Source: Phycisphaeraceae bacterium
GTDB lineage: Bacteria; Planctomycetota; Phycisphaerae; Phycisphaerales; Phycisphaeraceae
Length of the DNA: 64,000 nt
Assembly: GCA_002704825.1 (NCBI GenBank)
Contig: PAIY01000001.1
Coordinates: 1-64,000 of the forward strand
Reading direction: 5' to 3'
Every line of letters starts with the position of its first letter. The first letter of the stretch is position 1. Below are positions 7,117 to 62,849 of this stretch, piece after piece. The notes beneath the pieces were generated by a model. That model was not told where the DNA came from. It searched no databases and saw nothing but the letters and a program-made list of their open reading frames with translations. The position numbers and the translations under genes were made by a program.

Positions 7117-7232
7117 AAGAGCCGCACACGAAGTAAGCGGTTGTCTTGGGCGCCACCGGTGTACGTTCTGGCTTGCGTTGAGTTGAATTAAAAACAAAAT
7201 TGAAGACAACCGCTTACTTCGTGCGCGGCTCT
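7117..7232. terminator. long imperfect inverted repeat between convergent ruvB and the MocR gene
   Basis: The arms of about 32 bases (7117-7148 and about 7201-7232) match at all but one or two positions. They carry GAGCCGC, CACGAAGTAAGCGG and TTGTCTT on the left and the complement on the right, with a loop of about 50 bp. The element lies between two convergent genes, as expected for a bidirectional terminator. The arms are much longer than termination requires, so it may also be a dispersed repeat. Confidence 0.6.
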
Positions 7233-57585: not shown

Positions 57586-60357
57586 ATGGCAAACCCCCGC
57601 GAAACCGCAAAACAGACGCTTAGCACGCCGTTGGGCGACAAGACCATCTACAACCTGAGCACCCTCGGTGACCAGGTCAACAAGCTGCCTTACTCGATCA
57701 AGGTGCTGCTCGAAGCGGTTCTCCGCAATGTCGACGAATATGTTTACACCTCCGATCACGTCAACGCCTTGGCCAACTATGACGCCAAGAACGTCGGCGA
57801 AGTGGAAATCCCCTTCATGCCCGGTCGCGTGGTGTTGCAGGACTTCACCGGCGTGCCTGCCGTCGTGGACCTGGCTGCCATGCGTGCGGGGATCGTCCGC
57901 ATGACCGGCAACGAAGCCGATGCCGCAAAGGTCAACCCGCTGGTGCCCTGCGATCTGGTCATTGACCACTCCGTGCAGGTCGACGCCTTTGGCAGTGACG
58001 TTGCTCTGACCATCAACTCCGAGAAGGAATTTGAGCGTAACAACGAACGCTACGAATTCCTCAAGTGGGGTCAGCAGGCATTCAAAAACTTCCGCGTGGT
58101 TCCCCCTGCCACCGGCATCGTTCACCAGATCAACCTCGAATACCTTGCCAAAGGTGTTTGGGACAACGGTGACACGCTGTATCCCGACTCACTCGTTGGC
58201 ACCGACAGTCACACCACCATGATCAACGGCCTGGGCGTCGTCGGTTGGGGTGTGGGCGGTATCGAAGCCGAAGCCATCATGCTCGGCCAACCCATTTTCA
58301 TGCTCATCCCCGAAGTGGTTGGCATCAAGCTCACCGGCAAACTCACCGAAGGCGTCACCGCTACCGACCTGGTCCTTCGCATCACCCAGATGCTCCGAGC
58401 CCACGGCGTGGTCGGCAAGTTCTGCGAGTTCCACGGCCCCGGTCTTGCGAACATGACTTTGGCTAACCGTGCAACCATCGCCAACATGGCCCCGGAATAT
58501 GGTGCGACGCTGGGCTTCTTCCCCATCGATGATCAGACCCTCGACTACATGAAACTCACCGGCCGCGATGAAAAACTCATTGCCACCGTCGAGCAGTACT
58601 GCAAGGCCAACGGCTTCTGGCGTGATGACAATAACCAGGCGGTCTACACCGACGAACTGGAACTGGACATGTCCACCGTTGTTCCCGCGCTCTCAGGCCC
58701 CAAGCGTCCGCAGGACCGCATCGACCTCACCGACATGCAGCCCAAGTGGAAGGAAACGCTGGCAAGCTTCGGTCGCTCCACCGGCGCCAACGCCGCAGCT
58801 AGCATGGACTCCGAAGGAGGCACCGCCGTCCTCGAAGCCGAGCCGCAAACCGGTGTGGAAGTCGAATACGACGGCCAGACTTTCACCCTCAAGGACGGCG
58901 ACGTCTGCATCGCAGCCATCACCTCCTGCACCAACACCTCCAACCCCGACGTGATGATCGCTGCCGGTCTTGTTGCCAAGAAAGCCAACGCCCTTGGCCT
59001 CACCCGTAAGCCGTGGGTCAAGACCTCCATGGCACCGGGTTCCAAGGTCGTCACCGACTACTACGAAAAGGCACAGCTTTGGGACGATCTCAATGCACTG
59101 GGCTTTAACCTCGTCGGCTACGGATGCACCACCTGCATCGGTAACTCCGGCCCGCTGCCCGAACCGATCTCCAAGGCGATTAACGAAAACAACCTCGTCG
59201 CCTGCTCGGTGCTTTCAGGTAACCGTAACTTCGAAGGCCGAATCGGCCCGGACATCAAGGCCAACTACCTTGCTTCCCCGCCGCTGGTCGTTGCCTACGC
59301 CATCGCAGGCACGGTCAATATCGACCTGAAAAATGATCCCCTTGCCACCGACAAGGATGGCAAGCCGGTCTACCTCAAGGACATCTGGCCCGCTCAATCC
59401 GAAGTCGACGAACTGGTCAAAACCTGCGTGACTCGTGAACAGTTTGAAACCCAGTATGCTGACACCTTCGCTGGTTCCAAGGAATGGCAGGCGATTCAGT
59501 CTTCCACCGGTGCGTTGTACGAATGGAACGAGAAGTCCACTTACGTTCAGGAACCGCCGTTCTTCGTAGGTCTCACCCCTGACGTCAAACCGATCGCCCC
59601 GATCTCCGGTGCACGCTGCTTGGCCAAACTTGCTGACTCGGTCACCACCGACCACATCAGCCCCGCAGGTGCGATCAAGCGTCACACCCCTGCTGCCAAG
59701 TATCTGGATGACAACGGCGTGCCCGTGTCGATGTACAACTCCTTCGGCTCACGCCGTGGTAACGACCGCGTCATGACCCGTGGTACCTTCGCCAACATCC
59801 GCGTCAAAAACCAACTCGCCCCCGGCACCGAAGGCGGTTACACCGTCGACTTCACCGGCAAAGAGCCCGTCAACCCCTACAACGACCCGGCAGTTGGTCA
59901 GGATGCACCCGGTGGCAAGGTCAGCTTCATCTATGACGCCGTCCAAAACTACAAGGAAGCAGGCACTCCGCTGGTTGTCCTCGCTGGCATCGACTACGGC
60001 ATGGGTTCCAGCCGCGACTGGGCTGCCAAAGGCACCTTCCTGCTGGGTGTCAAAGCCGTCATCGCCAAGAGCTATGAACGCATCCACCGTTCCAACCTCG
60101 TGGGCATGGGCGTGCTTCCGTTGCAGTACAAGGACGGACAGGACGCTGACAGCCTCGGCCTCACCGGCACCGAGACGTTTGACATCGCCATCGACGATGC
60201 GGTCAAGCCCCGCCAGGACATCAAAGTCATCGCCACCAAGGACGACGGCAGCAAAGTCGAGTTCACCACCCAATGTCGCATCGACACCCCCGTGGAAGTC
60301 GACTACTACCGCAACGGCGGCATCCTGCATACCGTGCTGCGGAACATGGCCAAGTAA
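57586..60357 (+). CDS. acnA: aconitate hydratase AcnA
   Basis: This 4Fe-4S enzyme of the TCA cycle interconverts citrate and isocitrate. The 923-residue product matches the AcnA/IRP1 type in length. Fe-S cysteines are in [13 protein letters not shown] and [15 protein letters not shown]. Substrate-binding motifs include [53 protein letters not shown] and [16 protein letters not shown], followed by [15 protein letters not shown]. It is monocistronic and ends with a clear terminator at 60402. Codons are strongly biased to C-ending forms compared with its neighbours, in line with high expression. Confidence 0.97.
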
Positions 60358-60458: not shown

Positions 60459-60497
60459 GACGTTAAGTCGTGTACGCAGAGATACACGACTTCGTCG
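60459..60497. repeat. hairpin at the left edge of the RAYT element
   Basis: AAGTCGTGTA (60465-60474) and TACACGACTT (60483-60492) form a perfect 10-bp stem with an 8-base loop; flanking GACG/CGTC extends it with mismatches. It lies directly outside the left outer REP-like repeat and has no counterpart on the right. Confidence 0.6.
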
Positions 60498-60498
60498 C

Positions 60499-61194
60499 GT
60501 CAGCAGCACGCAGTGCTGCAGCTATTGTGTTACAAGATTGCACTCACGAAATCACAAACATAATAGCAGCGTCAAACTGTCTTCACGATAGCTGCGATAC
60601 TGCGTGTCGCTGATGCCTTGTTCAAAGTGTGTGCTCGATTTTCAAACCATTTCTCACCTTGATGCTTCGGAATGTACTCCGACATCAGATAATCGAAATG
60701 CTTTCGATCCTTCACACGTTTGCGACTGCCTGCACGTGCGAACCGTTGTTGCTTGTGTACACCATTGAGTTGATAGGCTAATGCACGTTTGAGTCGTTGT
60801 CGCAGTGCATCCCATGTACGTTCATCTGCCCAACTCACCAGAATGTGCAGATGTGTTGCGTCAGTTCCTATTCCATGTACTCGCAGCTCAAGTATTTTTG
60901 CTGCTTGAAGTGTCGCGTGAATCATGCAACTTTGAGCATTGCGATCAAACCTTACGTCACGTTGTTTCATCTGTTGTTTGTAGGTGTCTGCAAGATTGAT
61001 ATTGCGTGCTTGAATGCCTTGCTGATCGCGCCTTACAAAACCACGTTGACGATCAGGCAACCATGTGCCATAAGCGTGAAATGTGAAGAAGTAACATGGC
61101 ATACTCACAGATTAAGACATCAGCGACACGCAGTATCGCAGCTATTGAGACTACGCAAAGATAAACAATAGCTGCAGCACTGCGTGCTGCTGAC
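60499..61194. mobile_element. RAYT transposase flanked by nested perfect inverted REP-like repeats
   Basis: The outer repeat is a perfect 29-bp inverted pair at 60499-60527 and 61166-61194. It begins GTCAGCAGCACGCAGTGC and is itself foldable (GCAGCAC with GTGCTGC). The inner repeat is a perfect 28-bp inverted pair at 60588-60615 and 61118-61145. It is similar to the outer one (CAGCTAT end, GCAGTATCGCAG). On each side the outer and inner copies face each other, so each flank is a REPIN-like doublet. The enclosed gene encodes a Y1-type transposase, and its 3' end lies inside the left inner repeat. Confidence 0.8.
60572..61108 (-). CDS. REP-associated tyrosine transposase (Y1/IS200-like domain)
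   Basis: The 178-residue single-strand DNA transposase of the IS200/RAYT superfamily begins CYFFTFHAYGTWLPDRQRG, as in the RAYT-like group. The HUH metal motif reads ATHLHILVSW (His-Leu-His). The candidate catalytic Tyr lies in FDYLMSEYIPKHQGEKW. The last 15 residues (KASATRSIAAIV) are encoded by the left inner REP-like repeat. The gene ends 10 bp before the start of that region's partner spacer and begins 10 bp before the right inner repeat. It may mobilise its own flanking repeats and any matching REPINs in the genome. Confidence 0.85.
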   Translation of the reverse strand: MSMPCYFFTFHAYGTWLPDRQRGFVRRDQQGIQARNINLADTYKQQMKQRDVRFDRNAQSCMIHATLQAAKILELRVHGIGTDATHLHILVSWADERTWDALRQRLKRALAYQLNGVHKQQRFARAGSRKRVKDRKHFDYLMSEYIPKHQGEKWFENRAHTLNKASATRSIAAIVKTV

Positions 61195-61235
61195 ACTGCG
61201 AGGCAGTTTATTGCGTCATCAAATCGCTCTCATAC

Positions 61236-62849
61236 TCACACCGACCCCGGATCGCGATCCAGTGACTGTTCGAGTGTGAGATTGTCATCCGTTGTCTTGC
61301 TCGTGTAGTGCAACACCATCATGATCGCTGCTGCTGCAAGGTACACCCAGGCGAACTCGGAGGCGACCATGTAACGCATCTTGCCATCGCCGTCGAACAT
61401 CGGCGCAAAGACGTTTGCGACATTGCCATCCACCCATTCAAAAGCATGGATCACGCCTGTTGCAGAAAGCACTGCAGCAGCAACGGTCCATGCAGCAGCC
61501 TTGTTGAGTTTGCGGTCGATGATGAATGCGAGAATCGTTGCATAAAGCAGACTCGTCACCAAGAAACCCTGACTCAGCGAGATAATGCCTTCCAGATAGA
61601 CGCCCGACTGCTTGAGTGGTTCCATGGCTTGGGTGAGGGTTTTGCCCCCGAGCATCAAACACGGTTTAACCAGAATGTCCAACGCCCATGCAGCAAAGGC
61701 GGGGATCAAACCAAACGCGACAGCCATGGTGTGTGCTTTGGGAACCGCAGCAAAAGCCTGTGCGGTGATGATGATCCCGATCCACAGCAGAATCCCGAGC
61801 ATCACTTCGACCGGGACCCACTGCTGGATAAACGTCATCGCGCCGGTGAAGCAGACGATGGCGATGGCAATACCATTGAGCACGCTGTAGCCAGCACGAG
61901 CGCCCATGGCTTTCCAGCCGGGGTGTCCGATGTAGATGGTGGTCGGGAAGGTTGAACCAAACAGGGATGCGATGATCGACCCGATGCCGTTGACCAGTAA
62001 GCTGGAGCGTGTGGGGAATTGGTCACCTGCTGCTTCCGCTGACTCAAGATTCTGTAACGAACCGATGATGTTAAAAAGTCCCATTGGGAAGATGATGGAC
62101 ATGTACTGCCAACCTGCGGGATTGGAGAGGAATCCCAGTAGCGTTGTGGCCGTCTGCCTGGGGGGATAAAAGCCGATATCACCTGCAGCCTGGGCAGGTG
62201 TCCAATCCGTGAGATTCATGGCTTTGAGTCCCCAGGCGATCAGGACACCAACCACAATCGCAACAAGACCGGCAGGCAAACCAATCGGCAATTTCATTCG
62301 TGATGCATAGGCAATGAGAATGATCAACATCGGCAGCAGCGCGATCTCCGGCGATGCGTAAAGCTGGAAGATGAAGTTCATGCTGATGAAGGTAATCGCG
62401 ACACCGGCCAAGGCAGAAAGCAGACCCGCACGCGGTGTGTGTTTGCGAAGCCAATCCCCGATGAAGGCGCCGCCGGTTTCCATGAGCCCACTGAAAAAGC
62501 AGGCAAAGAGTCCGACTTTCCAGGTCAGGTCTGCGTCATTGGTTTGATGATAGACGGGGACCATGACCAGGAAGATGTAGGCGATCATGCTTGGCGTGTT
62601 AATGCCATAGGGCAGCGCGGTGATGTCATTGCGGCCGGTCTTTTTCATCAGTGACCAGGCTTGATAGGCGTAGAACAAATTGCCAATCAAAATGGAAATC
62701 GCTGCCCCGGGAAGGATGTAGCCGTTAACGAGTTCTGCTGGGAGTTTGCAGACATAGATGCACAAGGTTTGGATGAGCATCAGTTGAAGCATGTTGTCAA
62801 TGAACAGACCAAAGAAGCCGTCAATATCACCACGAACGAAGTATTTCAC
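61236..62849 (-). CDS. AzgA-type purine permease (NCS2 superfamily)
   Basis: The 537-residue membrane transporter has about 12-14 helices. It begins MKYFVRGDIDGFFGLFIDNM, and RNDITALPYGINTPSMIAYIF and NLESAEAAGDQFPTRSSLLVNG match the AzgA branch of NCS2 transporters. FGSTFPTTIYIGHPGWKAMGAR carries the second half-site. AzgA proteins import adenine, guanine or hypoxanthine, driven by H+ symport. GTG 62849 is the start. The C-terminal tail (SKTTDDNLTLEQSLDRDPGSV) is cytoplasmic. No purine catabolic gene is adjacent. Confidence 0.85.
   Translation of the reverse strand: MKYFVRGDIDGFFGLFIDNMLQLMLIQTLCIYVCKLPAELVNGYILPGAAISILIGNLFYAYQAWSLMKKTGRNDITALPYGINTPSMIAYIFLVMVPVYHQTNDADLTWKVGLFACFFSGLMETGGAFIGDWLRKHTPRAGLLSALAGVAITFISMNFIFQLYASPEIALLPMLIILIAYASRMKLPIGLPAGLVAIVVGVLIAWGLKAMNLTDWTPAQAAGDIGFYPPRQTATTLLGFLSNPAGWQYMSIIFPMGLFNIIGSLQNLESAEAAGDQFPTRSSLLVNGIGSIIASLFGSTFPTTIYIGHPGWKAMGARAGYSVLNGIAIAIVCFTGAMTFIQQWVPVEVMLGILLWIGIIITAQAFAAVPKAHTMAVAFGLIPAFAAWALDILVKPCLMLGGKTLTQAMEPLKQSGVYLEGIISLSQGFLVTSLLYATILAFIIDRKLNKAAAWTVAAAVLSATGVIHAFEWVDGNVANVFAPMFDGDGKMRYMVASEFAWVYLAAAAIMMVLHYTSKTTDDNLTLEQSLDRDPGSV

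Follow-up and report, generated by a model that had tools for sequence, protein, structure and literature searches.

A RAYT gene flanked by two inverted REPINs in a Phycisphaeraceae bacterium: a very probable REPtron with ATAG-footed REPs

Several systems pair a RAYT gene with dispersed REP repeats. In the Pseudomonas REPIN-RAYT system, the RAYT lies beside inverted REP doublets, REPs are dispersed in extragenic DNA, and a genome carries several RAYTs, each with its own REP type (Bertels and Rainey 2011, PMC3116915). In the E. coli REPtron (TnpA-REP group 2; 4er8), REPINs are built from two REP subtypes (compare Y and Z of BIMEs), the stem has a mismatch near the foot (a C-G pair, then T.T), and a CT dinucleotide occupies a fixed place beside the REP (PMC8266576). 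TnpA-REP of E. coli and Stenotrophomonas cuts at CT beside the REP. The GTAG foot is essential in E. coli, and in Stenotrophomonas a change of its first base lowered cleavage less than changes at the other bases (PMC8266576). Published tyrosine motifs are Y---Q in class 1, YI..NP in class 2 and Y----Q in class 3 (PMC6006769). TnpAY1 class 3 comprises RAYT-like genes of Planctomycetes and Acidobacteria with atypical hairpins that lack GTAG, have a CnGA foot and are sometimes present in high copy (Quentin 2018, PMC6006769). In Rhodopirellula baltica, several tyrosine-transposase genes of one planctomycete (RAYTs and TIRYTs) have their own flanking repeats; that survey groups REPs by GTAG or CGTC tags, and its main text names no ATAG-tagged family (Rocco 2013, PMC3733652). 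Since planctomycete REPs and RAYTs are already published (PMC6006769, PMC3733652), a planctomycete host alone is not novel. The sequence-only reading of the present locus had stressed a complete, symmetric planctomycete case; the case is real, but its novelty does not lie in the taxon.

The locus resembles these systems in its architecture. Within the window, which is the whole 64-kb stretch of DNA analysed, a RAYT gene lies between two REP doublets, and in each doublet the TAG feet of the two units point toward one another (Table 1). The REP unit is a 25-nt hairpin, TAGCTGC-NNNNN-NNN-NNNNN-GCTGA (ATAGCTGC-stem-loop-stem-GCTGA), with a mismatch near the foot as in E. coli. Its generic pattern matches the window exactly four times, always at the element, and shuffles expect 0.00. 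At the window RAYT, the CT tail is found on the inner REPs and the second hairpin on the outer ones. The sequence-only reading was right that both pairs of arms are perfect and that the inner arms span 28 bp, but the outer arms measure 30 bp and not 29. Its view of each side as an inverted doublet (REPIN form) is also correct; on the right side, 61120-61147 and 61166-61193 are 82% complementary. It also had the left inner arm encoding the protein C-terminus. The last codons do run through the REP in the window, but the frame of the ortholog in the congener G003 ends just before the REP, so that the REP-encoded tail, which has low confidence in the structural model, is a local extension and not a family feature. 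A Pfam search with the permease-like neighbour gave no match. Rfam returned sub-threshold matches to long-hairpin microRNA families only, rejected as chance matches to the REPIN foldback.

Table 1. Features of the RAYT element and its neighbours (window coordinates)
Feature	Position	Strand	Remarks
RAYT (TnpA-REP-like HUH/Y1) gene	60572..61102	-	176 aa from conserved ATG
RAYT, longer start	60572-61108	-	upstream GTG at 61108; 178 aa, open frame
RAYT residues			H84-x-H86, catalytic-candidate Y143, H147
Outer inverted arms	60499-60528 / 61165-61194		perfect reverse complements, 30 bp (direct sequence reading)
Inner inverted arms	60588-60615 / 61118-61145		perfect, 28 bp (direct sequence reading)
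Left outer REP	60500..60524	-	TAGCTGCAGCACTGCGTGCTGCTGA; A-type stem
Left inner REP	60589..60613	+	TAGCTGCGATACTGCGTGTCGCTGA; G-type stem; overlaps RAYT 3' end
Right inner REP	61120..61144	-	G-type stem; identical to left inner REP
Right outer REP	61169..61193	+	A-type stem; identical to left outer REP
Second short hairpin	60485..60499	.	immediately outside left outer REP; CGCGACGAAGTCGTG on - strand
Second short hairpin	61194..61209	.	immediately outside right outer REP; CACTGCGAGGCAGTTT
TGCCTTG tail of left inner REP	60614..60620	+	candidate CT cleavage site
TGTCTTA tail of right inner REP	61113..61119	-	candidate CT cleavage site
acnA (aconitase)	57586-60357		neighbour on one side of element
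Permease-like gene	61236-62849		neighbour on other side; named from sequence

Recognition of the protein required a family alignment, as the single window sequence was insufficient: searched alone against Pfam, NCBIfam and PDB sequences, it gave nothing useful, whereas 19 of 24 family members match Pfam Y1_Tnp. H84, H86, W91, H135, Y143 and H147 are kept across 24 aligned homologs, and the invariance of H84, H86 and Y143 shows that an HUH motif and a single catalytic-candidate tyrosine are present. Position 120, a nearly invariant tryptophan in the homologs, is arginine in the window protein. The predicted fold (AF2, pLDDT 90.5) matches TnpA-REP and IS200/IS605 TnpA. The top Foldseek match is a complex of TnpA-REP with a REP hairpin (4er8, E 3e-5), which aligns over 126 residues of the HUH/Tyr fold (Z 11.2, rmsd 2.7), and the IS608/ISDra2 enzymes align with Z 13-14 over about 100 residues. 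In contrast, sequence identity to E. coli TnpA-REP is about 10%, and the tyrosine motif of the family is Y-L-P-x-H (YIPKH in the window protein), as opposed to YIHYNP in E. coli and Y----Q in class 3. This motif is absent from all 12 TnpAY1 subclasses in Table 1 of PMC6006769, and because it fits none of them, the window RAYT is left outside published subclasses 1.1-2.8 and 3. Of 61 genomes sampled across the genus, family and order, 18 contain relatives at E<=1e-8, and when 294 genomes of the phylum were searched with a profile, matches stronger than 1e-30 came from the order only. A relative of 220-231 aa, with HUH replaced by YLQ, has matches in all four genus members (G000:C190:332 (L003), L092, G001 942477 and G003 C26:30637). 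It looks conserved but non-catalytic, and a search for inverted-repeat flanks at this gene found none.

The order acnA, RAYT, permease occupies the same site in the congeners G001 and G003 as in the source genome (G000), so the RAYT is vertically inherited. The RAYT orthologs are 57% identical to the window protein, and the neighbouring genes are much better conserved (about 81-91% in G003). With dN of 0.31-0.34 and dS of 1.15-1.61, dN/dS is about 0.2-0.3, a ratio that indicates purifying selection. The conserved site, the identity and this ratio together show a gene that kept its position while evolving fast under constraint. The full element is single-copy, and its next relative in the genome is 33% identical. 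The sequence-only reading had proposed to check whether the RAYT is single-copy and vertically inherited, and both hold. The same reading took the perfect arms as a sign of recent activity or strong selection; they do not show recent movement of the unit as a whole, which kept its position while its REP stems changed.

REPs matching those at the RAYT are dispersed through the genome. A short REP core has 86 matches genome-wide against 1 in the reversed control, and the matching REPs number about 80. A stem-free frame pattern gives 78, 82, 42 and 73 matches in four genus members (controls 11, 17, 3 and 10) and 0-8 in each of 33 other relatives. Among 152 REPs gathered from two genomes, inner positions form Watson-Crick pairs in 290/305 and 301/320 cases, whereas shuffling the arms among REPs gives 227 and 255 on average and at most 251 and 270, a pattern indicating that the stems covary. 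Because this collection was partly chosen by stem pairing, the stem-free counts serve as the unbiased evidence. By simple ORF calls, 5/70 and 7/62 REPs lie within ORFs, compared with 84-87% of random positions; REPs sit at gene 3' ends. Divergent gene pairs enclose only 1/62 and 0/54 REPs (elsewhere 21/91 and 21/106, same ORF calls), as expected if elements are purged from promoters. The commonest stems among 61 anchored REPs are exact GACAC (21) and ATCAC (13), and the RAYT-locus type AGCAC is seldom seen in the rest of the genome. The foot begins with A (ATAG) in 68/75 and 56/68 REPs, so the family departs from the canonical 5' GT[AG]G foot. GTAG does not define all REPtrons, however, since it is also missing from subclass 2.6 and class 3 (PMC6006769), and ATAG is plausible as a working guide because the first base of GTAG matters least in Stenotrophomonas (PMC8266576). 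At G000:C127:37447 and C160:13986, the REP loop is replaced by TTCCGGGGGC, which matches another repeat, CCCCCGGAAGT, that recurs at several places in the genus; in these two REPs, one repeat may have inserted into another.

The genome-wide search for doublets that the sequence-only reading called for finds about 13 facing (inverted) REP doublets in G000, and G003 has 8-10. The inverted doublet is thus a recurring unit. Only about a third of the REPs (25/78) face a partner, however, and most are singlets, in contrast to Pseudomonas, where doublets dominate; such dominance is typical of REPINs but not universal. In nearly all doublets, one arm has a G-initial stem (GACAC/GATAC) and the other an A-initial stem, comparable to the two subtypes of E. 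coli. Two further differences from Pseudomonas are the ATAG at the start of the REPs and a second 15-nt hairpin, free to vary, that they often carry. This hairpin directly follows GCTGA in 24/79 REPs of G000 (1.5 expected), nearly always with a 6-bp stem and a 3-nt loop, and its stems are diverse (AACTGC, AACCGC, CACGTT, GAGAGC, TTGAGC, CGCGAC, TGCATC and others). Another set of REPs has a TGYCTT tail, and in 18/78 and 16/68 REPs its CTT starts exactly at base four (about 1 expected). Because TnpA-REP of E. coli and Stenotrophomonas cuts at CT, the CT in this tail is a candidate cleavage site. A fixed REPIN polarity that would put the second hairpin at one end and the CT tail at the opposite end was rejected, as it fails for some doublets. 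About six further pairs in G003 stand back to back, with feet outward and starts 48-51 bp apart (among them C17:36463, C20:9152, C26:36879, C70:51161 and C80:6774); back-to-back pairs of the window REP type were not found in G000.

One RAYT gene accompanies each REP type in this genome, with four RAYTs and four unrelated REP families. The second RAYT (G000:C116:5826, L002), the 33% relative, is flanked by GCACCGGGTTAACACCCGGTGC, which has 112 matches genome-wide (0 in the control), largely as doublets 48-49 bp apart. A class-3-like RAYT (G000:C114:53795, L004) has the motif YTLNEQ, which fits the class 3 motif better than that of the window RAYT does (PMC6006769); CGCTTACTTCGTGCGCGGCTCTT has 53 copies (0 in the control), and one of its doublets falls in the window at 7119-7231. 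The fourth Y1 gene (G000:C129:15567, L005; Pfam Y1_Tnp) has flanks of CACCGCGGCTCGCCTGA-type repeats with 56 matches (0 in the control). Across 25 homologous RAYT loci, each has its own REP, and all 25 have hairpin flanks of 7-11 bp with different stems and usually an (A)TAG foot.

Taken together, the element is very probably a REPtron, consisting of one domesticated HUH/tyrosine transposase-like gene, two inverted REPINs and about 80 dispersed matching REPs. Inverted REPs flank the RAYT and are also scattered through the rest of the genome, and the gene has been inherited without transposing. We infer REP cleavage and mobility by the window RAYT. The protein would bind the single-stranded, hairpin-folded REP by its 5' ATAG foot and stem-loop geometry and would cut the nearby CT through Tyr143. 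REP or REPIN units would then be copied or moved in trans, and those that survive would lie mostly downstream of genes. The RAYT itself stays in place and is maintained through vertical descent, as has been proposed for other RAYTs. The singlet excess, the ATAG foot and the rarity of the RAYT-locus stem AGCAC count against the REPtron reading. The W120R change and the read-through into the REP also leave room for decay of any present-day activity.

Decay would be a state of the REPtron: a RAYT that has begun to lose its function, and REPs left over as fossils of past activity. The loss of W120 at a nearly invariant site, an ORF that runs into a REP and the missing Pfam hit of the protein alone suggest that it could be losing activity, and the predominance of singlets and the scarcity of RAYT-type stems in the population agree with this. 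We consider this state unlikely but worth keeping in view, given that HUH, Y143 and H147 are intact, dN/dS is well below 1, and exact GACAC and ATCAC stems are so frequent among the anchored REPs.

A different explanation sees in the dispersed repeats mainly structural signals of RNA or DNA (terminators, hairpins at mRNA 3' ends) that selection keeps in place; the RAYT would then be incidental, or no more than their historical source. The gene 3'-end location favors this, and comparison with G003, which the sequence-only reading had suggested for closely related strains, bears on it in both directions. From 1.2 Mb of G003 sampled, 16/65 G000 REP sites lie in orthologous intervals, of which 6 have a clear REP in both genomes and 10 in G000 only. 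Matches scoring 11-12 were left out, as about as many occur in the reversed control and they are treated as chance; counting them, shared REPs are 8. At shared sites, both stem arms may change together with pairing kept, as in ATCAC/GTGAT to GACAC/GTGTC (C141:25961). Such persistence would suit a structural signal, but paired changes could also come from replacement by conversion or template switching. The commonest variants are species-specific (many ATTGC/GTTGC stems in G001, GACAC-AAC-GTGTC in G002), which fits amplification after speciation, and orthologous sites can be empty. REPs of the TAGCCGC..GCTGG class are more numerous in the two genomes that carry the second RAYT of the genus (L084, L069), with 21 and 13 matches, than in the two in which this RAYT was not detected (6 and 1), and each homologous RAYT has its own REP. 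Selection in place as the main explanation is therefore improbable. Clean insertion boundaries were not readable at the empty sites, as intergenic DNA is too diverged; one partial exception is G000:C12:11932 (L127), where a 16-bp inverted repeat (AGATCGTTTTCAAATT / AATTTGAAAACGATCT) encloses a doublet that has second hairpins at either side; this doublet adjoins 94-98% conserved DNA, and its G003 site is empty.

An ordinary IS200/IS605-type insertion sequence with elaborate subterminal hairpins, the whole 0.7-kb element moving as a unit, could account for the IS608/ISDra2-like fold and for arms identical in mirror image like element ends, but it is contradicted by a single copy in place of several near-identical ones, by the same site in three congeners and by ends that occur about 80 times without the gene, and it is very unlikely. 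The identification as a REPIN-RAYT system from sequence alone holds, since the repeats are not confined to one place and the full element is not repeated.

Within the REPtron reading, the departures from canonical REPtrons are the ATAG foot, the Y-L-P-x-H motif, the second variable hairpin and the singlet excess. They may mark a separate RAYT subclass of this Phycisphaerae-type order, a tentative proposal that we hold at somewhat below even confidence. Its Y-L-P-x-H protein would read a constant ATAG foot and hairpin geometry while the stem sequence drifts freely, so that each species would run its own REP dialect, and REPs at orthologous sites would alter both arms without moving. The second hairpin and the CT tail would mark two kinds of unit boundary. 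RAYT/REP biology is extended to a lineage with 25 comparable loci, each with its own hairpin; with the foot constant and the stem variable, these loci amount to a natural experiment on which features the protein reads. REP turnover can be measured in the genus too, from its pairs of shared and empty sites. If confirmed, the ATAG foot and the YLPxH site would provide a test of the guide-sequence model for the choice of cleavage site (A3G4 against CT).
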